Shown here one piece after another: positions 10,376 through 59,200 of a stretch of 64,000 nt of DNA. The stretch is from assembly GCF_964355755.1 (NCBI RefSeq), contig NC_092678.1:1263922-1327921 (forward strand), given 5' to 3'. Both the position numbers and the translations under genes were made by a program. How positions within the stretch are numbered: the stretch's first letter is position 1; every line of letters begins with the position of its first letter. This stretch comes from Antedon mediterranea. Its lineage: Eukaryota > Echinodermata > Crinoidea > Comatulida > Antedonidae. The notes under the pieces are model-generated. The model saw only the letters and a list, made by a program, of their open reading frames with translations. It was not told the origin of the DNA and did no database searches.

Positions 10376-13300
10376 CTAATCAAACTCAACGTCCATTTGC
10401 TTGATTGTAGATACATCTTTGGCCAGAAGGGCGTAAACGTCCCGCGCTGCTTTAACCTTCGCTTCAGCATATAAAATCAGTGACTTTTGAAAATCCAGGG
10501 TGCGCTGTTGGTGGAATTTGGTAATCTGTCGATAAAGAACATTGTTATATTGCTGTGTTGCAATCAACAAAGAAGTTTACATGCCAAGCAATTGAGAGGC
10601 AAAGATATAAAACAATTTCTTTTGTCTAACTTTTAGGTTGTTAATTTCTCCAGTGCAATACGGGATGCTGCAACATCTGGGTCACAACTTACCTCCTTTT
10701 TTGCTACTTCTGAAATTGCATTTAGTTCTTTTTCAGCGTCTTCTTTAGCAGCCTCCGCCTGAAAATAACAATGGAATAACACTGGAATAAATGTTTTTGT
10801 TGCCATGTGCATGATATAGGACAATCGATTCACATCATGTTGCTACTAGACATAAATAAATCACCTTAAGCTCTGTCTATACTATCAATTAGTTTGACAA
10901 AAATGTGTGATGTGCCCAAATATGGTAGTGATAATAATACCCAATTATGGTAGGATATCATCATGTCCATATATGGGCACATCACATCAAGTTTGATAGT
11001 GTAAACAGAGCTTTACAAAACTCCAGAGTTTACAGCCACCAGGGCATGTATGCCCATGCCCAATGTGAAAGGGGCTTATAGTCTTTTAAATCTTACCATA
11101 GGCTTCTTGAGTGGCTTGGCTTTCTCTAATGTTTTTGATGCGTTATCAAATTGAACTAAGGCACATGTTCTTTCAAACAACATTTCCTAAAACAAAGATG
11201 ACAACTGTTATTTTTATCACCAAATAAATGAGGAGCAAGCAAATGAAATTGCAATATACAGTGACTCAGATCTAAAGGTACATCAAGGGTCTGGGTCTAT
11301 GCAGTAGAATGTCATTTGAATGCAAAACAACCTAAACTGCAATGTACAGTACCTATGACAATAGAATATCAACGTAGTGAGTTTAAATATACATGCATAC
11401 TATTGAGTGGTTACTCACTTTACACGATAGCCAGTATCTGGAGTAAAGATCTAAGTGAAAGCCCAAAGTGGTTACTCACTTTACACGATAGCCAGTAATC
11501 TGGAGTAAAGATCTAAGTGAAAGCCCAAAGTGGTTACTCACTTTACACGATAGCCAGTATCTGAAGTAAAGATCTAAGTGAAAGCCCAAAGTGGTTACTC
11601 ACTTTACACGATAGCCAGTATCTGGAGTAAAGATCTAAGTGAAAGCCCAAAGTGGTTACTCACTTTACACGATAGCCAGTATCTGGAGTAAAGATCTAAG
11701 TGAAAGCCCAATGTGGTTACTCACTTTACACAATAGCCAGTATCTGGAGTAAAGATCTAAGTGAAAGCCCAAAGTGGTTACTCACTTTACACGATAGCCA
11801 GTATCTGGAGTAAAGATCTAAGTGAAAGCCCAAAGTGGTTACTCACTTTACACGATAGACAGTATCTGGAGTAAAGATCTAAGTGAAAGCCCAAAGTGGT
11901 TACTCACTTTACACGATAGCCAGTATCTGGAGTAAAGATCTAAGTGAAAGCCCAAAGTGGTTACTCACTTTACACGATAGCCAGTATCTGAAGTAAAGAT
12001 CTAAGTGAAAGCCCAAAGTGGTTACTCACTTTACACGATAGCCAGTATCTGAAGTAAAGATCTAAGTGAAAGCCCAAAGTGGTTACTCACTTTACACGAT
12101 AGCCAGTATCTGGAGTAAAGATCTAAGTGAAAGCCCAATGTGGTTACTCACTTTACACAATAGCCAGTATCTGGAGTAAAGATCTAAGTGAAAGCCCAAA
12201 GTGGTTACTCACTTTACACGATAGACAGTATCTGGAGTAAAGATCTAAGTGAAAGCCCAATGTGGTTACTCACTTTACACAATAGCCAGTATCTGGAGTA
12301 AAGATCTAAGTGAAAGCCCAATTTGGTTACTCACTTTACACAATAGCCAGTATCTGGAGTAAAGATCTAAGTGAAAGCCCAAAGTGGTTACTCACTTTAC
12401 ACGATAGCCAGTATCTGGAGTAAAGATCTAAGTGAAAGCCCAAAGTGGTTACTCACTTTACACGATAGACAGTATCTGGAGTAAAGATCTAAGTGAAAGC
12501 CCAAAGTGGTTACTCACTTTACACGATAGCCAGTATCTGGAGTAAAGATCTAAGTGAAAGCCCAAAGTGTTTTCATCGTTGGCAGTACACACGTCAACAG
12601 CATACCCATAATGGTCTATGGATTTCGCAAATTCAACCTGAAGTCTATAATAAAAAGAAATACAATACCATAACGATTACCAAAGCCCTATTCACCAAAA
12701 AATAGTCATACCCATATGCTTATCACAAATAGTGACCCCGATAAGCATCTCACAAATAGTCACACCAATAAGCATATCACAAATACTTTAATCATTTACA
12801 TCAAGTACTTACTTGTTAATGATGGCAGACGCACCATTATCCTCTGCACTCATTCCCAAACACAGGGCAGTTGATAAATGGTTACAGGCCATAGATATTC
12901 CTGACAAAAGAACAAACAACATTAATAGACAAACTAGTATTATCCTAAAGCTCTGTCCACACTATCAAACTTTATGTGACAAAAAAATGTGATGTGCCCA
13001 TACATGGACATGATGATGTCATATCACTACCATATTTGGGCATACCACTACCATATTTGGGCACATCACACTTTAGTCAAACTAGTTTGATAGTGTAGGT
13101 AGATTTTAACAACGAACTATAAAATGTTGTGAACGTTTGGTTACCTAAATTATATACATACTGTTTGTTATATTTTGTGCATTAACTGATGCTGTCCACC
13201 ATAGAATTTCTAATTTGATAACAATTGGTTGTTTTTATCAAAATAATTTGCTATTTAGCTTTACTTACGGCACAAGCTGTTCACCATTGTGTCAAAATTA

Positions 13301-15466
13301 AGGCTAGTTTCCTTAGCAATTTTTTGCATATCATTTGCTAGATCTCGTTCTTTCTGGAACATTTCATCTATGTCTTTGTGGCCACCCTTTCGTACACCAT
13401 CTACTGCACGTGATAAGTTTGATAAAATACCTTTCTTCAGTTTGGCCCTTACTGGTGGCTAAAAGACAGTAAAACACTACTGTCACTATATTTTCAATGT
13501 ATTCGAGTTGGGAGTATTTTGTTTACTGTCCCACACGCAGTTGCTGATGGTTTCAGTTAAAAACTCTTTGTTCTTCTATATCTGGCATTATATTTGGATT
13601 TAATCAGCTTACCTCTTTCTTTGTAAGAAAATTAGACAACGCCTCACATTTTCCAATCGCTTCATGTCTCACAATCCCCTGTAAATACTTCTCTAGTTTA
13701 CGGCAATCTTTGTGAAATTCATCACCTATGCAAATAAAAAAAAGCTCTGTCTACACTATAAAACTAGTTTGACAAAAAAGTGGTAGTGATATGCCCAAAT
13801 ATGGTAGTGACATAACATCATGAAAATCATCAAGTCCATATATGGGCACATCACATTTTTTTGTCACATAAAGTTCCTTCCCTTGTCATCTTTAGAAATC
13901 TTAATATATTATTACCTTTTATATTTTTGCTTGCAGTTCCAAGTTGCTTGCGTGATTTGGCTTCTGCTTCAGCTGCAGATACTATTGGACGATCTGGCAA
14001 GGGTGGAAACTGAAATCATATAAAAAATTACTGGTATGCATTCATGTGTTGTAGTAACATGATTGGACTCCACTTTTTAAGACCTGATTAGAGCTTTAGT
14101 CTTTACTGTGTATGTTCCTTATGTATTTAAAATAGCTAACTCCTTTACCATTAGGCAGTATGTTTAGGCAGTGCTGTATTCTGTTCAATACACTTACTAT
14201 AACTCCTTTAACATTAGGCACTATATTTAGGCAGTGTTGTAGCCATTCAAAGTCTTCATATTGCCGGTCTACTTCGACTTCTTCTTTGCATTGTTCAAGC
14301 TAAAAATAAAACGAAAAACATTTTAAGTTATCTTTAGACAGTACACAAGTACACACATAACTTTGCCAACCACCTGTGCTGCAGTATACTGCAGTAGATG
14401 ATTTAAATGTACCTTGACTGTTGTGATTTGAAACATGACCACTTCGCCATTCTTACTAGCACCTTTAATCTGCACAGAGTACCACGGTTGAAATGGTTTC
14501 AATCTTATTTCTTCCTCTCCATTTATTTCACCATTTTCTTTTTGATGTTCGGGCTTTTCATCCTACAAAAAATAGATATAAAATAATATAAATGATAAAA
14601 TGGTTTAGACTATAGTGTATGTATAATTATTTTGCAAATGCATTTTCATTTTAGTTTGATAAGATCACCACACTCACTTAAATTAAACAAATTTCCATCT
14701 GGCTTTACTTTATGAGTATTGCCCTCTTCCTTCATATTACAATTTGATCATTGACATTGTTTTCCTTATTTTTATGCCTTTTCATCTCTGAAATCGCTTT
14801 TGCTACTCAATAATATTTAATCAAGAAGAACATTTGTTTTTATATGTGGAAGAAATAAATGTTGATTTGATTGAAATAATATTAAACCTAATTTGTAGCA
14901 ACGCAGATTAATTGCATGAATATACAAAATAATAAAAAAAAAAAACACACATCTAAATAGGATATAAAAATTACATACATCATTTCAGTATATTATTATT
15001 ACTACTGTATAAGGAATAATTAATAATTAATATAAATTTAAAATCATTTGAAAACAATGTATTTTGAAGTGAGTCGGTATGAACAAATAAAATGTATTCA
15101 ATGACCTATATTATATATCTCTATGATTATATATAGGATATCTATATGAAAATGAATCTTAAGTTGTTTGTGTTTTATTTCCTTGTAACGCTGTGTTTAG
15201 ATTGCAAAGCTTCATCATAATTAGAGACTAGAGTTTGTATAGGCTAGGTCTCTATCTATTTTATTATGCCTATTAGAGAGTAGTAGTAGGCCTAGTAGAT
15301 CCTCTCTAACTTTAGTTTAGAGCCGCCTATTAAAGTATTAAAACAAAGATATTATTTATTCATTAATAATAAATTATTAATAATATTAATAATAATATTT
15401 AATTATTATCAATATTTAAAAAATTATTCAATTAATTATTTTGTCAGTACTTACAGAATCAGACAT
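10376..15466 (-). CDS. PX-BAR sorting nexin, SNX5/6-like
   Basis: Eleven coding exons in transcription order: 15466-15455, 14562-14413, 14299-14198, 14009-13916, 13725-13613, 13458-13269, 12900-12813, 12644-12518, 11186-11097, 10758-10693, 10525-10376. All phases agree; the product is 393 aa (SNX5/6 about 405). An acidic N-terminus is followed by a PX domain (about 20-140) with FQPWYSVQI, RQYEDFEWLQHCL and FPPLPDRP, then PPVRAKLKKG and a helical BAR region to the end (ERTCALVQFDNASKTLEKAKP; FHQQRTLDFQKSL). SNX-BAR proteins bind phosphoinositides and tubulate endosomes for retromer/ESCPE-type recycling. The canonical PX Arg/Tyr set is only partly present, as in SNX5/6. Exon 8 ends in the 61-bp array at 11407-12568, and only its 5'-most donor keeps frame. 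The gene is head-to-head with COMMD7. Confidence 0.85.
10867..11014. mobile_element. MITE-A copy, complete
   Basis: taagctctgtctatactatc at the left and gatagtgtaaacagagctt at the right, about 148 bp, with the internal tgtgcccaaatatggtagtg and tccatatatgggcacatcac halves. It lies in a sorting-nexin intron. Ends are flanked by TA, suggesting a TA target site. Confidence 0.85.
11407..12568 (-). repeat. 61-bp minisatellite built from an exon-intron junction, 19 copies
   Basis: The plus-strand unit starts gtggttactcactttacacg and recurs at 61-bp spacing from 11407 to 12506 (one unit is 62 bp). On the minus strand each unit is the end of sorting-nexin exon 8 (coding LDLYSRYWLSCK) followed by its donor AAA|GTGAGT and about 20 intronic bases. 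The rightmost copy is the functional exon end. Copies differ at only a few positions (cgatag/caatag, tagcc/tagac, ctgg/ctga). Confidence 0.95.
12946..13107. mobile_element. MITE-A copy
   Basis: taaagctctgtccacactat ... tagtttgatagtgtaggtag. The right end has decayed past the tagtgta word. The internal block ccatatttgggca is doubled. It lies in a sorting-nexin intron. Confidence 0.8.
13742..13874. mobile_element. MITE-A copy, right end lost
   Basis: aaagctctgtctacactata at the left; the right side stops after tttttgtcacataaagtt. Intronic in the sorting nexin. Confidence 0.75.
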
Positions 15467-15781: not shown

Positions 15782-18700
15782 ATGGCGACTTCCTTTCATT
15801 TTACGACAGAAACGCCTGCTGATTCCATGTTTACAGATATTCAGACATTTAATAAATTTGAAGATGAGGTATTGTTATAACACTACCGGTCCTAGCTAGC
15901 TAGTATACCATAGCTAACATACAGACCATTTTTTTTATTCTAGCTAGTAGCTAGGCCTCCTATGCCAGACTAGGCGCGGACTCTTCTTTTTTGCATGCAG
16001 TGTCTACGCGGCCGCCGACCGGTGACTGACTGGGCGACTACTTACTGAAGAGGGCCAGGCGGCCTAGGCCTGCTACCTATATAACTAAAATAATATGGGA
16101 TGGTGGGAAATTGCAATACCAAAAGGCTTATAAATAGGACATTATAATTATTATGTTAATTAATAATTCAGTACTTTAATTTTTAAATTTCACAAATGTT
16201 TATATATGGCCTACTACTAGTACTAGCCTAGCTAGGCCCTAGGCCCTAGCTCCTAGCTAGGCTAATTTAATTAATTAATAATAATATTTTATTAATATTA
16301 CTAATAATTAATTTATTTTATTTGTAGAAATTTTCTCAGATCGTTTCTATAGTGTTTTCCTTTCTACTCGAACCAAGTAAGGTTGGTATTTATTCATTTT
16401 AAACTTTTTTAAAAATATAACCAGAAATGTTATCTTTTTCACAACTTTTGATGCAAAGGCATTGCAAAATGATTTCCTTCACCCGCTCTTGTTGAGTAGT
16501 AGATAATAATTTACTTTTTTTTATACTAAAAGTAAAATGTGTATATTTCTATTCCCAAAGTCAAGTAGATTCTTAAATCAGCTGGAAGAGTTTGCTGAAA
16601 CACACGGAATAAATGCAACAGGACTGAAGAATGTCACCAAAAGCATGCTCACAGTCCCATACAGTAAGTTTCTGGAGCCATTCCTGTTACCATGCATTCT
16701 CACAACAACATAGGCCTACATTTCATACAACCAAAATCATTATAAAACTAGTACTGCTTTTTGGCTGCTGTTCCATCAAACAAAATCCATGTTTTGTACA
16801 TAAAAAAATGTATTCATTCTGTTTATTCTTCAAGGTGCAGTCAAGCGTAACATGAATTCAGCTCAACTTCAGCAAGATATGATGCACTTAGGTAAGTACA
16901 GTTCATTTTATGCCACATAATATACACTGATATGGTGGTGTTGTTTATTTTATATATTCAACATTAGAATAGCTATAATTTGATAAAAAATACAAAACAA
17001 TTGTAAAAGTACATATGCAAATCTTGTGTTTAGTGTTTATTAATTTAAACAAATTTCAAAATGAATTGTCATGTCAGTTCACGGAAATCACCTTGACACC
17101 AGCTACTCTACTTTCCACCCCCCCCCCCTCACCACCTCTTAACACACTGATTACATATTATACTAGCTCTATTGGTTGTGATGACTCAGTAATTAAGTAT
17201 TTTTACATTGTTTTCTCCAAGATTTGCTGCGATTAATTTTCTTTGTCTGTTGGAGATTACACTGATACCACTTGTACTATTAATACCATCATTTTTTCCA
17301 TCTATTCGTTTTATGAATAAAACATTTTTATCAAATAATTGTAATTTATTAATACTGGCTACAATTATATTTTCGTCACTGTCAGTTACTATAGCATTGG
17401 GGTACTTAACTTTCCCATCTTCTTCACCTTCAATTACAAGTGTTTTAATAAAGGTACCATTTGCATTGATCATTTGTATTCTATGATTACCCCAGTCAGC
17501 CACCATTAAATTACCTTCCTTGGTTAAAGTGACATCACGGGGGTAATGCAGTTCGCCCTCTAAACCTATCTTACCAAGCAGTCTGCCATCATCAACATTG
17601 AATTTAAATACACAATGAGCTTGAAAGTCTGTGACAAACAGAACTCGTGTTTTTTCATTAACCGCCAACCCCCAAGGATTGATCAATATTTCTTTACCAA
17701 ATTGACTGATTTCTTGTAATGTGTCATTACACATTACAACCCTCTTTCCTTCTGTGTCGCTATACAGAATGCGACCATTACCCATTGTATGCATTTTATT
17801 GACTCTAACATTGTGTGCCAATTGAATATGGGCAACAAATTCACCCGAATGATTAAACTTGAGTAACTCATTAGAGTTGCTTGATACTAAGATACAACCA
17901 TCTTTATCTAATTGTACATCTGACAGGCAATATTTGTTGTCTACTTTGTGGTCTCCTATTGTATCAGTGGTGTGTACAAGTCCTAGTGGTTCCACTTTGA
18001 TATTCACTGGTGTTCCTTTTAAGTGTGCTACTCCAGCAGTGATCTCCATCTTCCAATCACCTTCCTTATCACATCTTCCTTTTATTCTGTACTCTCCACT
18101 TCCCATGTATTCAACTTCATCAGTGGCTGTTGTTTTCCCTGATGGCTTTATCAGAGTAGCAGCTACGTTACATCTATCAATTTCATCCAGGCTTGATACA
18201 ATCACTTCAAATGCTTGTCCCTCTGTTACAGTAATAGCTTTATCATCTTTGTCAATGGCGTACTTGTTATCAACGCATACAATTGTACCGAGGCCTTTGA
18301 TAATGGCATCATCTACCTTTGTATTTAATCTGAAGGTTGGTGTCACTTTTTTGGGATACGATTGGTTGTTTCGTGATTGCATTTCTTCAATGTTTTTGTT
18401 AACGTCATCAATATTTCTCATGTAATCATCAAGCGTTGTTGTATTTCCTGGTTTGTTCATTGTTGTTTTTGTAATTAATCTCTTCAAACTTTGTGCTTTC
18501 TGTTGGTGTGACTCTAGCTCCCTCACTTCACTTTCAGTTGATTTGGTCTTTTCCTTACATACGTTTTCAAGATCTAATAATAGTTTTTTACCCTCCTTTT
18601 TAACCTTTCTAACAATTTCGTCTGTATGCGCTTCTATAGCTGTGCGGCAAAGCTGTACATGCATCTCAAAATGTACTTTATCATCTATTATAGAATTATA

Positions 18701-21700
18701 TATAACTTCCAATTTCTGTTTGATATCATCAACTGACTCAACAAGGTTAGAGACTTGTTTGTTAAATGCATCTATAGCGTTCCATATCGGTTTAGCATCA
18801 TGTTCTTCATAACACTGCATAAAATGTGTGCATTTCTTGCAAGCACTTTTGCTACAATTTGCACAAAACAATTGTAAATTGTTATCTGGATGGTCTTGGC
18901 ATTTGCGTGGTACTTCTTTTGACATCTGTAAAAACAGGTTTAAGAATTTTATTCTATAGTTAGTAAGGAGGTTTCATTTTTGGAATGACATACAGTACAT
19001 ACATAGAATCCACAAGGATTTTGAGCTGATTGGTCTGTTTGTCAAACTCAATAATGTTAAGAGTTCTTATAACTTACATTTCTAGCTGGACTTACTACAA
19101 GAACGTATCAGCTGACATTGTGAAATAGTAAAGGACATTGTGAAATGTTATAATTTAAAAAAAAAATTAATATAACATTTTATATACTGTTATTTAGTTA
19201 TTTAGTATGTAAATTACCTTGTTTTCTTGATGTAGTTCCTTGTACTCTTAAACGTTTTGTATACAATACTGTAGTGATAGAATTAGGTACAGTTATTACA
19301 TTGATATTATTACTTAGTAGTCTAGCTTTTCTCATGCAAATTATGAATTTGACAATTTTTCAAATACTAACTGTATGAAGATAGAAAGAAAGTAGAATCC
19401 ATTGTGTTGATGATAATCAACAATGAGGAAGTATTATAAAAAGCCTGCAGCCATTCAAAATTCAGATGTGGGGTCACTAATGTCAATTTATACATATTCA
19501 TTTCTTGCATGATGACAGTCGCAATATTTATTTTCAATTTCAATAAAATTCTGTTTTTTTCCTGAAGTATTCATTCATTCATTCAGACGCTTTGTCTGAC
19601 TTTATTCAAACTTTATTCTATGGTTTTTGATTAACTTGTACAATAATTTTATAAAATTAATATAGATAAATATCATTTTCTTAAAAAGTATTCTGAAATT
19701 ATAAGCATGATTAATATATTTTAGATAGATTATTAATAATTATTGAATCCATTAAATGAAAGTATGCCATCCATATCAAACAAAAGAAAACAGAAAGAAC
19801 AAATTTACAGTAATTATGAACAGTGTGTTTTATTTAAAGGTAAAAACATCATTATGTCTTAAATATTTACATATGTACAGCCGTTTACCAGAATATACGG
19901 TAATTAGAGCAAATAATTAAATTAATACTAACTATACAGTATAAAGCCTCACATCACTTAAATTACTTGCAAATTAATTCATACAACCAGGGGACGATTT
20001 AGGAGAGGGGGGGGGGGGTGTCGGGCCCCATACTGTATAGATATTATGCACCCATTTACATACAATTTTATCAACGATTTTACAGGAAAAGGGGGTACAA
20101 ATCAACATTAAAAATCGTTACGTTTTTTTTTAAAGTTGAACCGAGTTCAACTTCAACGTTACGATCGGTAAAACTGACTGACCAATCAAATAGTTCATAA
20201 ATTACGTCATCATTGTTTGTGAAAAAATACGTACGCGCTGACAATGTTTAAACACAAAGTCAATGAATATTTTAAGAATGTTACTTAATGTTTCTTTTTG
20301 TTTCTCTCATGAAATTTCGTTTAAATAACTTTTTATTAAGATGTCAATTTGTCTCAGTTAAATGTACATTAGGACTTTAATAGATGGAAATAAGTTACAC
20401 TGAAAATGTGAAACTTTATCTAATTATCCTTGGTTCATTTTGTTCTGTTTCCATTGTTTGACACCTGTTTTGTTGTACTTTTCTGGTGTTGTCTTTTGAA
20501 TTTGATGTACTGTTTATCGTCTTTTTTATAATGTATTTTATGTATGAACCAAATAAATTCAATCAATCAATCAATTCTTGATTTTTTACAACGCGACGAT
20601 GTTTTTTGTACTCTTTTAAAACCTGATAATTTAAAATAACAAGTGTAAGTAAAATTTAATTTTAATATAAAAACAATTTAATTTAATGTTTGTCTTTAGT
20701 GTAAAAACTAGATTAAGATATAAGCGAAAACATGTCCTAGGCCGGATTGGTTGAAGCATCAAAACCCGTAACTTTTTCAATTTTCTTACGGGCCCGGCTG
20801 CACGTGACCGGCCTTGGCTTTGCAAAACTCCACGTCCATGTGTCCAAGCAACGTCGAAAGAACCAAGAAACCATTAAAGATAACGTAAAAATGTGTAAAA
20901 ATTCGCAACGGGAAAACAGGCTTTAGGCACCAAAAAAAACCAGTTCCGTATAGGCTATTAAATATGGTCTATAAAACCCACTATATTCAGATAATTATAT
21001 GACAAGAATCGACTGGCCAAAACGCCTCAGATGCTATCTCCGGGCGTCTAGAAAAATCCCCCTAGACGATTATTTTTCCCATATCGGGCCCCCCCCCCCC
21101 CCTCTTTATCAAAATCCTAGATCCGCCCCTCTTGAATTCACATGATATTGGTTTTACACTAATCTATTTTGAATCCATTTGTTGCATATTTTCTACATAG
21201 AATTGCTGTTTAGTAATTAAATATTTTCACATTGTCTTTTCCACGATTTGCTATTGCTAATCTCCTTGGTCTATTGGAGATTACACACATTCCCCATGGA
21301 AAATCAATACCATCATTTATGCCACCTATACATTTAATGAAAATGCCATTTATATCAAATAATTGTAGTTTATTTCTACTGGCTACAATTATATTTTCAT
21401 CCATGTCCATTACTATAGAATGAGGATACATAACTTTCCCAATTTCTTCACCTTCATTTACAAGTGTTTTAATAAATATACCATTTGCATCAAACATCTG
21501 TATTCTATGATTACCCCAGTCAACCACCATTAAATTGCCTTCCTTGGTTAAAGTGACATCACGGGGACAATCCAGTTTACCATGTTCTTTACCTTCAGAA
21601 CCTATCTTACCTAGCAAGTTACCGTTTTCAACATTGATTTTAAGTATACAATGAGAATGGAAGTCTGCAACATACATAACTTTTGTTTTATTGTTTAGTG

Positions 21701-24700
21701 TCAGCCCACTTGGAAATCCCAATAATCCTTCACACAATAGATTGGGTTCTTCAAATTTACTATTACACTTTACAACTTTCTTTCCGTCTGTGTCACAATA
21801 CAGGATATGACCGTTGCTCATTGCATGCATTTTAGCGACCTTAGTTTTTTGTGTCACTTTTATATTGCCAACAAATTTTCCTGATTTGTTGAATTTCAAT
21901 AAATTATTAGAACAGCTTGAAACTACTATACAACCGTCTGAGTCTAATAATACATCTGTTACTCTGTATTTATCTAATTTGTGTTCTTTCATGTTTTCAA
22001 TCGTATGTACAAGTCCCAGTGGTTCCACTTGGATCTTCACTGGAGAACCTTTGATTTTCACTTCACAAGATGTGATCTCCATCTTCCAATCACCTTCCTT
22101 ATCACATCTTCCTTTTATTCTGTACTCTCCACTTCCCATGTATTCAACTTCATCAGTGGCTGTTGTTTTCCCTGATGGCTTTATCAGAGTAGCAGCTACG
22201 TTACATCTATCAATTTCATCCAGGCTTGATACAATCACTTCAAATGCTTGTCCCTCTGTTACAGTAATAGCTTTATCATCTTTGTCAATGGCGTACTTGT
22301 TATCAACGCATACAATTGTACCGAGGCCTTTGATAATGGCATCATCTACCTTTGTATTTAATCTGAAGGTTGGTGTCACTTTTTTGGGATACGATTGGTC
22401 GTTTCGTGATTGCATTTCTTCAATGTTTTTGTTAACGTCATCAATATTTCTCATGTAATCATCAAGCGTTGTTGTATTTCCTGGTTTGTTCATTGTTGTT
22501 TTTGTAATTAATCTCTTCAAACTTTGTGCTTTCTGTTGGTGTGACTCTAGCTCCCTCACTTCACTTTCAGTTGATTTGGTCTTTTCCTTACATACGTTTT
22601 CAAGATCTAATAATAGTTTTTTACCCTCCTTTTTAACCTTTCTAACAATTTCGTCTGTATGCGCTTCTATAGCTGTGCGGCAAAGCTGTACATGCATCTC
22701 AAAATGTACTTTATCATCTATTATAGAATTATATACAACTTCCAATTTCTGTTTGATATCATCAACTGACTCAACAAGGCTAGAGACTTGTTTGTTAAAT
22801 GCATCTATAGCGTTCCATATCGGTTTAGCATCATGTTCTTCATAACACTGCATAAAATGTGTGCATTTCTTGCAAGCACTTTTGCTACAATTTGCACAAA
22901 ACAATTGTAAATTGTTATCTGGATGGTCTTGGCATTTGCGTGGTACTTCCTTTGACATCTGTAAAAACAGGTTTAAGAATGTTATTCTATAGTTAGTAAG
23001 GAGGTTTCATTTTTGGAATGACATACAGTACATACATAGAATCCACAAGGATTTTGAACTGATTGGTCTGTTTGTCAAACTCAATAATGTTAAGAGTTGT
23101 TATAACTTACATTTCTAGCTGGACTTACTACAAGAACGTATCAGCTGACATTGTGAAATACTAAAGGACATTGTGAAATGTTATAATTTAAAAAAAAAAT
23201 TAATATAACATTTTATATACTGTTATTTAGTTATTTAGTATGTAAATTACCTTGTTTTCTTGATGTAGTTCCTTGTACTCCTAAACGTTGTGTATACAAT
23301 ACTGTAGTGATAGAATTAGGTACAGTTATTACATTCATATTATTACTTAGTAGTCTAGCTTTTCTCATGCAAATTATGAATTTGACAATTTTTCAAATAC
23401 TAACTGTATGAAGATAGAAAGAAAGTAGAATCCATTGTGTTGATGATAATCAACAATGAGGAAGTATTATAAAAAGCCTGCAGCCATTCAACTATAATCC
23501 AGAATAAGGTTCACTGTCTTTTTATAAAGCAGTTTAAAATGATCAATATCAACAACAACAAAACAGAAAGAATAAAAGAGAGCTGAAAGAAAAATTGTAT
23601 GAAAACAAATTTATATTTAATTTAAAGTATATTTTAATTTTTTTTTTATTAATTATTATTTTGTTTTATTACAGGTCTTTCAGAAGATAAAGCCAATTAT
23701 TTTTCAAAACAGGTAAAAAATTGTATTGCTAGAAAGAATGAAAGTCAACGAATTTGTGATTTTTTTAAAAATAAAACACTCAATTCATAGCATCTCAGTA
23801 TCTTTTGAAAATAATTATGTTTTATTTATGTTATTTTTTTTTTTTTTTTAGTGGCATGAAAACATCGTAGGTTTGTCTAAGACGGCTGTTGGACAGACTT
23901 TAACAGTGAACCAATTAGTTGATATGGACTGGAAATTTGGTGGTAAATAATTTGTCTTACTTATAACATTCACACCTCATACTGTAGATAATGGAAAACC
24001 TTATTTACAGTAATAGAATAAACTCATTCATTTCAGGTCTCTAACTTAAGAGTTGCATTCAATTTGTGCTGATAATGTTATGTTATGATAATGTTATGTT
24101 ATGATAATGTTATGATAATTAATGTTATGTTATGATAATGTTATGTTATGATAATGTTATGTTTTGTTTATAGTTACAGCAGCAAGTAGTGAACTAAAGA
24201 AAGTTGGTAATACTTTTTTACAGGTAGGTTTTTATAATATTAATATACTTCAGATATTGTATGCAATGCTGTCTATAATATAAATATAATATGCATTGAT
24301 TTCTTATAAAATGATACTTCAATATAAAACGTCTGTATGTACGCCATTTGAATCCAAACCCTGTTAAATAATATGTTAGTGCTTGTGTGTTCATTATACA
24401 ATGTTAATTCAGCCAAAAGTGTTCCCTAACTGACTTTGTGTGTCCCTTGGATAGAGTAATAGCACTGTCTGTTAACTATATTAAATAAATATCAATATGT
24501 TATTTCAGTTAAAATTAGTTGTCAACAAAGGAAACAAGATGGAGAATGTGTATATGGGTAAGTCTTTCTACTTTCTACTCTCAGTAAAGTATTTTTATTT
24601 TCTGCTTGTTTTTGTATTTTTATGAATGTTTTTTTATATTTGTTGTGTGGATATTTTCTGAAATATTGATTGAAATGCTGTATTTTATCTTTATGTACTA

Positions 24701-27683: not shown

Positions 27684-30600
27684 ATGATGATGAATCTAAA
27701 GGTGACAGTTGTGGGTGACGGTGCAGTCGGCAAAAGCTGTATGCTAATAAGCTACAACACGAACTCATTCCCATCGGAATACGTTCCCACTGTGTTTGAC
27801 AATTACGCAGCTAACGTATTGCATAAAGGAAAGGCGTATAACATAGCATTTTTTGATACAGCTGGCCAGGTACAAATATTATAATACAGTAGAACCCTTT
27901 CTTTAGGACACTCCTGTTCATGGGACACTCCTGTTCATGGGGCACCCCTGTTCATGGGACACCCCTATTAATGGAACACCCCTGTTCATGGGACACCCCT
28001 ATTAACAGAACACCCCTGTTCATGGGACACCCCTATTAACAGAACACCCCTGTTCATAGGACACATCTGTTCACGGGACACCCCTGTTCACAGAACACAT
28101 CTGTTCATGGGACACCCCTGTTCACAGAACACCCCTGTTCATGGGACACTCCTGTTCATGGGACACCCCTATTAATGGAACACCCCTGTTCATGGGACAC
28201 TCCTGTTCATGGGACACCCCTATTAACAGAACACCCCTGTTCATGGGACACCCCTATTAACAGAACACCCCTGTTCATGGGACACCCCTATTAACAGAAC
28301 ACCCCTGTTCATAGGACACATCTGTTCATGGGACATCCCTATTAACGGAACACCCCTGTTCATGGGACACCCCTGTTCACAGAACACCCCTGTTCATGGG
28401 ACACTCCTGTTCATGGGACACCCCTATTAATGGAACACCCCTGTTCATGGGACACTCCTGTTCATGGGACACCCCTATTAACAGAACACCCCTGTTCATG
28501 GGACACCCCTATTAACAGAACACCCCTGTTCATGGGACACCCCTATTAACAGAACACCCCTGTTCATAGGACACATCTGTTCATGGGACATCCTATTAAC
28601 GGAACACCCCTGTTCATGGGACACTCCTGTTCATGGGACACCCCTATTAACGGAACACCCCTGTTCATGGGACACTCCTGTTCATGGGACACCCCTGTTA
28701 ACGGAACACCCTGTTCATGGGACATCACTGTTCATAAGACACCCCTGTTTATGAGACACCCCTGTTCATGAGACACCCCTATTTATGAAACACCCCTTTT
28801 CACAGAACACCCCTGTTCATGGGACACCCTTGTTCATGGGACATCCCTATTCACGGAACACCCCTGTTCATGGGACACCCCTGTTCATGGGACAGCCCTA
28901 TTAAAAAGACACTTTCCTGTAAAACAAGTGCAGGCCAATGTATATTTTAACACTACTGTATATCGAACCCCATATTCAGAGGACACCCTTATTTAAGGGA
29001 CACTATTTTAAGGGTAAACTCTTTAATGGGAACAGTTCTGAAATCTTTAAAAAAAAAAAGTTAATTCTCATGATAATTTCTTATTTCAGGAAGATTATGA
29101 TAGGTTGCGTCCATTGTCCTATCCTGGAACCGATGTCTTCCTGCTGTGTTTTAGCGTTGCTAGCAGAGACTCATTAACTAATATTCCAGAAAAATGGCTT
29201 CCTGAATTAAAACACTTCTGCCCATCTACACCTATAGTACTAGTTGGCAATAAATCAGGTAAGTTTCCTAAGTTTTTACAATACCCTACATTTTTTTAAA
29301 GTCCATTAAAAAGACTTCTTGATCTCTGACAGGATTTAAACCAGGAATCCACTTTACATGGTTATAACATATGCATCATTGTTTTTCTGCCATCAGATTT
29401 AAGAAGTTCGAGTCGAGCTTCTGAACATTTGGTGCCATTGAGTGAATGTAAGAGTGCAGCCAAGAAGTTTGGCCTGACATATCATGAGACAAGTGCTCTC
29501 ACCATGGACGGCTTGAAGGAACTATTTGAATATGTGGTAGGTAATCTTTATACAAATCTGCTAAATATCTATTTTTACATAGTTTATCTGTTTTTTAAAT
29601 GTTATATACCACTCCTGTAGTTTTATATACCTTTGACCCTTTTCTATATAATCAAATTGTTTGTTTGAGCTTGTTAACAAAATATTAGACCAATAAAGAG
29701 TGTATTGTGTATAAAATCTATTCAGGATCCCCACTATTAAGAGCACACTTTGTTTTATGTCCCGAAGGTGTCCCTTAATAGAGCTTCTACTATAGTGTAT
29801 TATATATAGTGTATATTGTATGGGGCAAAAAAATGTGTTGTGCCCATATATAGACATAATGATGTCATATCACTACCATATTTAAGCATATCACTACTAT
29901 ATTTGGGCATGTCACACTTTTTTCATACTAGTTTAATAGTGTAGACAGGGCTTAATATTCCAGCTCTTAATTTTGGTTTTATTCATTCAAGATTGATGTA
30001 GGCGTGGCCCAGACTACAAAGTCAAAAAGGAAGTCAATTTTTGGCAAACGTAGTGCCAAAGCTGTTCCGCTTCCTCCAGTGATGCCTCCAGCTGGTGAGT
30101 ACAGATTTCTTTGCAGTTACTGCAGTAACTACTACTTGTTTACTCTTTAACCTGTTTATACCTTTTTCTGGATAATCACACACACACAGGTGTTGTAATG
30201 TATAATAAATCTAAATTATTTTGATTTAATTAATAATAAGTTATTGTCTTATATTCTTTATTACAGGTCAAGCACCATGGATAGAAATAAAGACATCTGT
30301 ATTTGGAGAGCACTGGTTAAATGCTCTTCGTCAGCCGCAACACGCTGATGTAACATTTCTCGTTGGCAATGCGCAACTACAGGCACATAGGCTAGTACTA
30401 TGTTGCGCTTCTAAATTCTTCGCCCGCTTGTTTGCGATAGAACCGCCTCAAATGGTATGTTGTTTTTAAATTCATCCATGCACCTACAATAAATACATAA
30501 GACTGAATATAAAAAACTTTGCATATAAAGGAACACTTGAATGGAACAACCTTAGTGTTGACATTCACTCGTCTACGGCCATACAAACTTGATTAAAACG

Positions 30601-56079: not shown

Positions 56080-56212
56080 AAGGGTTTATAAACACTTCGT
56101 AGTATACCATGTCTTCATTGCCCTTTATGTTCTCATTCTGTACGAATTTCTTCATAGTAATTTTCTCTTTTTTTCATAAACTTCGTAATGTACTATTTCC
56201 TTGTAGGCTTCG
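56080..56212 (-). pseudogene. Out-of-frame third copy of the receptor tail repeat
   Basis: Directly after the receptor stop codon, the minus strand continues with sequence resembling the preceding 70-residue tail unit: tyrosine-rich, then a match to EHxGNEDM. A two-base loss just before the stop puts it out of frame. The intact tail therefore ends early. See the finding on this region. Confidence 0.65.
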
Positions 56213-59200
56213 TCATAGCCAAGTTTCGATCTGTATCCAATTCTCTGCTACAGCATCATCTACATCGTTCTCTTCTTTGACTTCAAAAAAAGTAAAATAG
56301 TTCATGCAATTTCTCATGTCTTCATTGCCTTCATGTTCTCTTTCTTCACGGATTTGTTCATAGACATCTTCTCTTTCGTCATAAATGTCGTCATAATGTA
56401 CTCTTTCATTGTAGACTTCATTATAACCAAGTTCTTCGTTCTGTATCCCATTCTCTGTTACAGCATTATCTGCATCTTTCTCTTCTTTGACTTCAAATGA
56501 AGTAAAATAGTTCATGCAATTTCTCATGTCTTCATTGCCTTCATGTTCTCTTTCTTCACGGATTTTTTCATAGTCATCTTCTCTTTCGTCATAAACGTCG
56601 TCAGAATGTACTCTTTCATTGTAGACTTCATTATAGGAAAGTTCTTCGTTCTGTATCCCATTCTCTGTTACAGCATTATCTGCATTTTCTGTGCTCCTAT
56701 TGTCAGTTATTTCAGCAGTGACATCTACCATCTTGAGACCGCTACTGGCTGGCGCTTGTATGGCATTTTTTCTCTTATACATCAAAAAGATTATTATGAA
56801 AATTAAAAGAAGAATGACTGCACCAAAAGACAATCCAATAATCAAAGACTTATTATAATTAGTAAAAATAAGTATAGTAATAGTAAAATCATCTGATGCA
56901 AAAGCTGTCGGATGAATTGTTGGTATATTTAATGCAGTTTTTCTGCTGCCTGTTGTAAATACCATGTCAAGTGGTGGCTCTGATGACTTATCAGAACTAA
57001 TATCATCTGATGCGAAAGATGTCGGATGAATTGTTGGTATATTTAATGCAGTTTTACTGGTGCCTGTTGTAAATACCGTGTCAAGTTGTGACTCTGATGA
57101 CTTATCAGAAGTAATATCATCTGATGCGAAAGCTGTCGGATGAATTGTTGGTATATTTAATGCAGTTTTTCTGCTGCCTGTTGTAAATACCATGTCAAGT
57201 TGTGACTCTGATGACTTATCAGAAGAAGTATCATCTGATGCAAAAGATGTCGGATGAATTGTTGGTATATTTAATGCAGTTTTTCTGCTGCCTGTTGTAA
57301 ATACCGTGTCAAGTTGTGACTCTGATGACTTATCAGAAGTAATATCATCTGATGCGAAAGCTGTTGGATGAATTGTTGGTATATTTAATGCAGTTTTTCT
57401 GCTGCCTGTTGTAAATACCATGTCAAGTTGTGACTCTGATGACTTATCAGAAGTAATATCATCTGATGCGAAAGATGTCGGATGAATTGTTGGTGTATTT
57501 AATGCAGTTTTTCTACTGCCTGTTGTAAATACCGTGTCAAGTTGTGACTCTGATGACTTATCAGAAGTAATATCATCTGATGCGAAAGCTGTCGGATGAA
57601 TTGTTGGTATATTTAATGCAGTTTTTCTGCTGCCTGTTGTAAATACCATGTCAAGTTGTGACTCTGATGACTTATCAGAAGAAGTATCATCTGATGCAAA
57701 AGATGTCGGATGAATTGTTGGTATATTTAATGCAGTTTTTCTGCTGCCTGTTGTAAATACCGTGTCAAGTTGTGACTCTGATGACTTATCAGAAGTAATA
57801 TCATCTGATGCGAAAGCTGTTGGATGAATTGTTGGTATATTTAATGCAGTTTTTCTGCTGCCTGTTGTAAATACCATGTCAAGTTGTGACTCTGATGACT
57901 TATCAGAAGTAATATCATCTGATGCGAAAGATGTCGGATGAATTGTTGGTGTATTTAATGCAGTTTTTTTACTGCCTGTTGTAAATACCGTGTCAAGTTG
58001 TGACTCTGATGACTTATCAGAAGTAATATCATCTGATGCGAAAGATGTCGGATGAATTGTTGGTATATTTAATGCAGTTTTACTGCTGCTTGTTGTAAAT
58101 ACCGTGTCAAGTTGTGACTCTGATGACTTATCAGAAGTAATATCATCTGATGCGAAAGCTGTCGGATGAATTGTTGGTATATTTAATGCAGTTTTACTGC
58201 TGCTTGTTGTAAATACCGTGTCAAGTTGTGGCTCTGATGACTTATCAGAAGTAATATCATCTGATGCGAAAGCTGTCTGATGAATGTTTGGTATATTTAA
58301 TGCAGTTTTACTGCTGCTTGTTGTAAATACCGTGTCAAGTTGTGACTCTGATGACTTATCAGAAGTAATATCATCTGATGCGAAAGCTGTCGGATGAACT
58401 GTTGGTATATTTAATGCACTTTTTCTGCTGCCTGTTGTAAATACCTTGTCAAGTTGTGGCTTTGATGACTTATCAGAAGTAATATCATCTGATGCAAAAG
58501 ATGTCGGATGAATTGTTGGTATATTTAATGCAGTTTTTCTGCTGCCTGTTGTAAATACCGTGTCAAGTTGTGACTCTGATGACTTATCAGAAGTAATATC
58601 ATCTGATGCAAAAGATGTCGGATGAATTGTTGGTATATTTAATGCAGTTTTTCTGCTGCCTGTTCTAAATACCGTGTCAATTTGTAGTGTCGATTCTAGA
58701 CTAGTGTATTTATCGACTGAAGTTAATGACTCTGTCATTGTAGTCGTAACAGGAAATTCCCTAGTAGTAGAACTGTCTGTATGTTGTGGGCCTACTGTAG
58801 TTCCCATAGTCACCAGTAAGGCAGTTTCATGCCTTGTTGTCTGACGGAAAATTGGGTTTTGTGTTGTCTGTGATGTTTCATTTACTTTACATGTTGCAAT
58901 TACATCGTTATTCCAAACAAGCCTGCATTGGTATTCTACTGCGGATTCTGATTGTTGAAGAACATAATTCAATGAGTATAGTTTATATCTGTCGGGATAA
59001 TTGTAAAATATTGTTCTAGTTATCACATTGACTTGATTGTTCCACCATTGAATGTACGTTACGCCGGTGCCTTGTTGAGATGTACAAGTAATAAATTGCT
59101 GACGCGGATCACTAGTATTGTGACTACAGATCGGATATTGTGCTGGCGGTGGGTAGTAGATCCTCAGATCAATAAATCCATTTATATCGGTACTGGTTTC

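Follow-up and report, generated by a model that had tools for sequence, protein, structure and literature searches.

On the minus strand of the window (the whole stretch of DNA that we analysed, positions 1-64000) there is a sorting-nexin gene of the SNX5/6 type. Our spliced model of the coding sequence runs from 15466 down to 10376 (10376..15466, minus strand) and has 11 coding exons that encode 393 amino acids, with all frames open and GT-AG at each intron. Pfam places a PX domain in the protein (PF00787, E=2.5e-12, 47.6 bits over a cut-off of 21.6), and the C-terminal part is possibly Vps5/BAR-like, with PF09325 scoring 24.3 bits, just under its cut-off of 27. A phmmer search against solved structures gave a nearly full-length match to SNX5 (8afz_B, E=1.1e-21). 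The name sorting nexin in the original prediction stands.

We do not regard the gene as the SNX5/6 orthologue. When we searched the genome with SNX5, we found a gene at C10:1125299-1130621 with 51–73% identity per exon, and the window gene was not among the matches. Because the gene on contig C10 is far closer to SNX5, we rejected a housekeeping SNX5/6 identity for the window gene, which is a divergent SNX5/6-type paralogue. We also rejected the idea of a pseudogene, as the 11 exons are intact. That the 11-exon coding sequence has stayed intact despite strong divergence from SNX5 argues that the full-length product is still made.

Intron 8 of this gene (11187..12517, minus strand) is 1331 nt long, and about 1100 nt of it is a minisatellite that begins inside exon 8. 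TRF reports a 61-bp repeat at 11406-12569 (minus strand) with 19.1 copies, 97% matches and a score of 2214, and the unit listing resolves it into 19 units plus 4 bp (CACT). This is one base off at either end from the span of 11407-12568 given earlier, and the 61-bp unit and the 19 tandem 5' splice sites are borne out. On the minus strand the unit reads CACTTTGGGCTTTCACTTAGATCTTTACTCCAGATACTGGCTATCGTGTAAA|GTGAGTAAC and consists of 52 nt that are exonic in copy 1, followed by the donor with 9 nt of intron. The unit had been described as the end of exon 8, a donor and some intron, which is correct, although the exonic part is 17 codons and 1 nt rather than about 15 codons. What we have is therefore a tandem unit with a coding exon end and a complete donor, within a real gene, of the same type as the human F7 intron 7 and CBS repeats (discussed below).

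All 19 donors read AAA|GTGAGT on the minus strand, and the donor G falls at 12517, 12456 and so on to 11479 and 11418. The spacing is 61 nt apart from a single step of 62, where unit 18 has a 1-base insertion. In the unit listing the donor nine-mers are identical at all nine positions (19/19) and the exonic context upstream of them is near-identical. The copy number of 19 is that of one assembly, and repeats of 1.2 kb are error-prone, so we considered whether the array is an assembly artefact or has the wrong copy number. We think this highly improbable, as variant units are interspersed in a non-trivial order and there are unique flanks on both sides. A genome-wide search of the 354-Mb assembly found the 61-bp array at one locus only, and with a single genomic locus we rejected a dispersed element as the source of the unit.

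The choice of donor decides which protein is made. Exon 8 is 127 nt long when it ends at donor 1 (12518..12644, minus strand), with acceptor TTTTTATTATAG|AC and donor AAA|GTGAGT; we placed it with an in-frame model and it agrees with the intron position in homologues on C10 and C11. Exon 9 is at 11097..11186 (minus strand) in the spliced model, with acceptor TTTGTTTTAG|GAAATG. Donor 1 (AAA|GTGAGT, 12512..12520, minus strand) gives the 393-aa protein and is the sole donor compatible with it. Donors 2–19 (11413..12459, minus strand) all lead to one common protein of 311 aa, cut short by a premature stop and ending ...SLRSLLQILSIV: past donor 1 the frame shifts and meets a TAA 1 nt ahead of donor 2. 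Three claims of the original prediction agree with this frame analysis: that only the most upstream donor fits the 393-aa protein, that a TAA precedes the second donor, and that any downstream donor truncates the product. The 311-aa truncation drops exons 9–11 and with them the end of the BAR-like region. With donors 2–19 the stop is followed by three exon junctions, the last of them 157–1195 nt downstream. Under the standard 50–55 nt rule for nonsense-mediated decay (NMD), these transcripts are predicted NMD targets. Since the coding sequence has remained intact in a much diverged gene, donor 1 is probably used enough to supply the full-length protein.

We compared the junction with two other genes in the genome. 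In the SNX5/6 gene on C10 the matching exon ends ...LLRYYMRDSAAAK|gtatat (...SAAAK|gtatat) and the next exon starts SLLLRRS, and in an SNX1/2-type gene on C11 the matching exon ends ...LLKDYVGLIGAVK|gtaagc (...GAVK|gtaagc). Both share with the window gene (...DLYSRYWLSCK|gtgagt) a phase-0 intron after lysine. Because these homologues keep an intron after the matching phase-0 lysine, the intron is old; donor 1 is then the ancestral site and the junction is older than the array. The frames and the intron position thus mark the most upstream copy as the ancestral, protein-making junction.

The edges of the array read CACTTTGGG...GTGAGTAAC|CACTCAATAG, so that it starts at CACTTTGGG in the exon and stops before CACTCAATAG in the intron. 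There is a four-base CACT at both ends, one exonic and one intronic, which suggests that the first duplication was primed by CACT microhomology and copied a single junction. The order of the units is ABAcCBCADDABACAADEA. ABAC occurs at units 1–4 (with variant c) and again at units 11–14, and this suggests a later block duplication. There are about six variant sites per 61-bp unit, with none inside the 9-nt donor. We dropped selection on the donor as a reading of the invariant nine-mer, which is not significant: with about six variant sites, we estimate that chance alone gives it approximately 40% of the time.

The window, some 1.3 Mb into a contig of 26 Mb, is rich in minisatellites. Arrays scoring at least 150 make up 18% of its bases, compared to 3.3% across eleven 10-kb samples taken in other parts of the genome, so the array is less surprising here than it would be in an average region. 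Other minisatellite arrays begin at 27906, 30698, 42064, 43734, 48527 and 55145, among others. One of the arrays is coding: at 56882-58685 (minus strand) a 114-bp unit repeated 15.8 times makes 38-aa repeats in a 1134-aa open frame. That frame looks like a membrane-spanning protein whose acidic, tyrosine-rich tail is itself repeated (210-bp repeat, 56108-56690). We also observed two adjacent open frames, 595 and 598 aa long, which resemble TRIM/NHL proteins (17186-18973 and 21210-23006, minus strand); their first halves are nearly identical and their second halves have diverged, as after a recent duplication or gene conversion. Inspection of the open reading frames, with the other gene models in the window only partly worked out, turned up no second junction-spanning array.

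Several human systems resemble this one. In F7 intron 7 the donor sits in the first of several near-identical 37-bp tandem repeats, as it does here in a 61-bp unit, and PMC6627357, citing Borensztajn et al. 2006 PLoS Genet 2:e138, says that splicing normally uses the most upstream donor alone and attributes this to oriented scanning. F7 is a different gene in a different animal group, and donor use has been measured there while here we deduce it from sequence. The original prediction had proposed the array as a test, set up by nature, of how position affects donor choice; this holds for the array as a case, with 19 identical donors, but it is not the first, given the F7 precedent described in PMC6627357.

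The human CBS VNTR c.1444_1467+7(16_21) shares the anatomy, with a 31-bp unit that spans the exon 13/intron 13 boundary (24 exonic and 7 intronic nt), 16–21 copies and variant units (PMC2630376). It differs in being in another gene and polymorphic, whereas the array here has a unit of 52 + 9 nt and is seen in one assembly. Together with F7, the CBS VNTR makes a donor minisatellite that spans a junction an already known arrangement, from which the present case differs in lineage, gene and unit length. CBS 844ins68 also has a duplicated intron/exon junction with competing splice sites, of which the machinery strongly prefers one (PMC2630376), but it is a single intron 7/exon 8 duplication with one extra site, at the 3' end of the intron. 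The ABCA7 intron 18 VNTR is likewise a minisatellite in an intron, and its length correlates with splicing and expression (PMC6660495); it is described as intronic, however, and the correlation is with exon 19 skipping. In the system of PMC4974935 splice signals are also copied by tandem duplication, but there it yields new introns, and we saw no good acceptor in the unit here.

The acceptors bear on whether the units could serve as small exons or as recursive splice steps within the array. Each unit does contain AGs that come after a stretch with pyrimidines (CTTTCACTTAG, TTTACTCCAG) and lie ahead of a donor. However, on a small acceptor matrix of ten sites, all from the host gene, these two AGs reach -3.9 and -3.4. 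This is close to background (median -4.9), while nine of ten real acceptors score 2.4–13.1, and an intron between adjacent units would be only about 30 nt. We rejected internal acceptors on these scores from a ten-site matrix, and consider mini-exons extremely improbable.

Which of the 19 donors wins would depend largely on where it is. Exon 8 would be 127, 188 or 249 nt with donors 1, 2 or 3, and 310–1226 nt from donor 4 onward. Exon definition disfavours exons as long as 310–1226 nt, and exon length favours donors 1–3 over the others. Donor 1 is of middling strength for the gene (by a matrix built from the gene's own splice sites), and sequence context does not tell the 19 donors apart; the main difference between them is position.

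Local folding predicts most array donors in a hairpin, in which AAAGUG pairs with CACUUU at the start of the next unit. Throughout the series of donors at 11418-12517 (minus strand) the donor AAAGUG is the reverse complement of the next unit's CACUUU; the last donor is without a hairpin. The tandem duplication itself would in this model create the hairpin that covers the donor. The predicted opening energy is 4.0–6.3 kcal/mol for the array donors (about 5.9 for donor 1 and about 4.0 for donor 19), versus 0.3–3.2 kcal/mol for the gene's other nine donors with the same settings and up to 3.9 with wider settings. For a single-copy allele computed likewise, the opening energy of donor 1 is 4.1 kcal/mol; the duplication is thus predicted to have raised the barrier at donor 1 from 4.1 to about 5.9. 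Local RNA structure is not predicted to favour donor 1, and in classical duplicated-donor constructs the intron-proximal donor can win. We nonetheless infer that donor 1 most likely dominates by position, with the other 18 donors mostly silent.

The folding results also bear on a more active role for the array, in which a substantial fraction of transcripts is spliced from downstream donors and then broken down, with protein output falling as copies are added. All 18 of the extra donors lead to one premature stop with three exon junctions downstream, the predicted structure sequesters donor 1 as much as most other donors, and in the human CBS 31-bp VNTR a higher copy number goes with lower enzyme activity and higher homocysteine (PMC5188458). 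We still think such poison splicing unlikely, since F7 offers a precedent of upstream-only use, the exons from donor 4 onward are of a length that exon definition disfavours, and the array shows no sign of selection. In a related proposal, decoy donors, by their number and with the aid of the hairpins at the unit boundaries, would set the share of transcripts that goes to NMD; if copy number does act as such a rheostat, alleles of different length would differ in sorting-nexin output. This seems quite unlikely. Regulated non-productive splicing by the array, which the original prediction had raised, is no more than a possibility.

The downstream donors might instead bind U1 and so strengthen the recognition of donor 1 while staying unused themselves. 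There are identical U1-complementary sites every 61 nt downstream, and PMC5933811 describes an effect of U1 bound downstream on the use of a 5' splice site. Every such site is a complete donor and could equally compete, and we consider this reading very doubtful.

Our preferred explanation, to which we give a probability of roughly 0.7, is a neutral or nearly neutral minisatellite that spans the junction, with donor 1 mostly used. The ancestral exon 8/intron 8 junction would have been tandemly duplicated between two CACTs, one exonic and one intronic, and the array would then have grown to 19 copies by multi-unit exchange. The spliceosome would mostly pick donor 1, we propose, as the first donor to be transcribed and the one with the shortest exon (127 nt), and the extra 18 donors would sit in the intron and be removed by splicing. 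Any leakage to donors 2–19 would give the 311-aa frame, with its stop upstream of three exon junctions, and NMD would presumably clear it.

The array opens no new class. It offers a clean natural competition by position among 19 donors whose context is almost identical, and a wrong choice would show as a recognisable product, in steps of 61 nt. With this array, the upstream-only result for F7, which comes from human cells, could be extended to another animal group and to a long array. The locus indicates that a coding gene can bear such an array with its reading frame intact.
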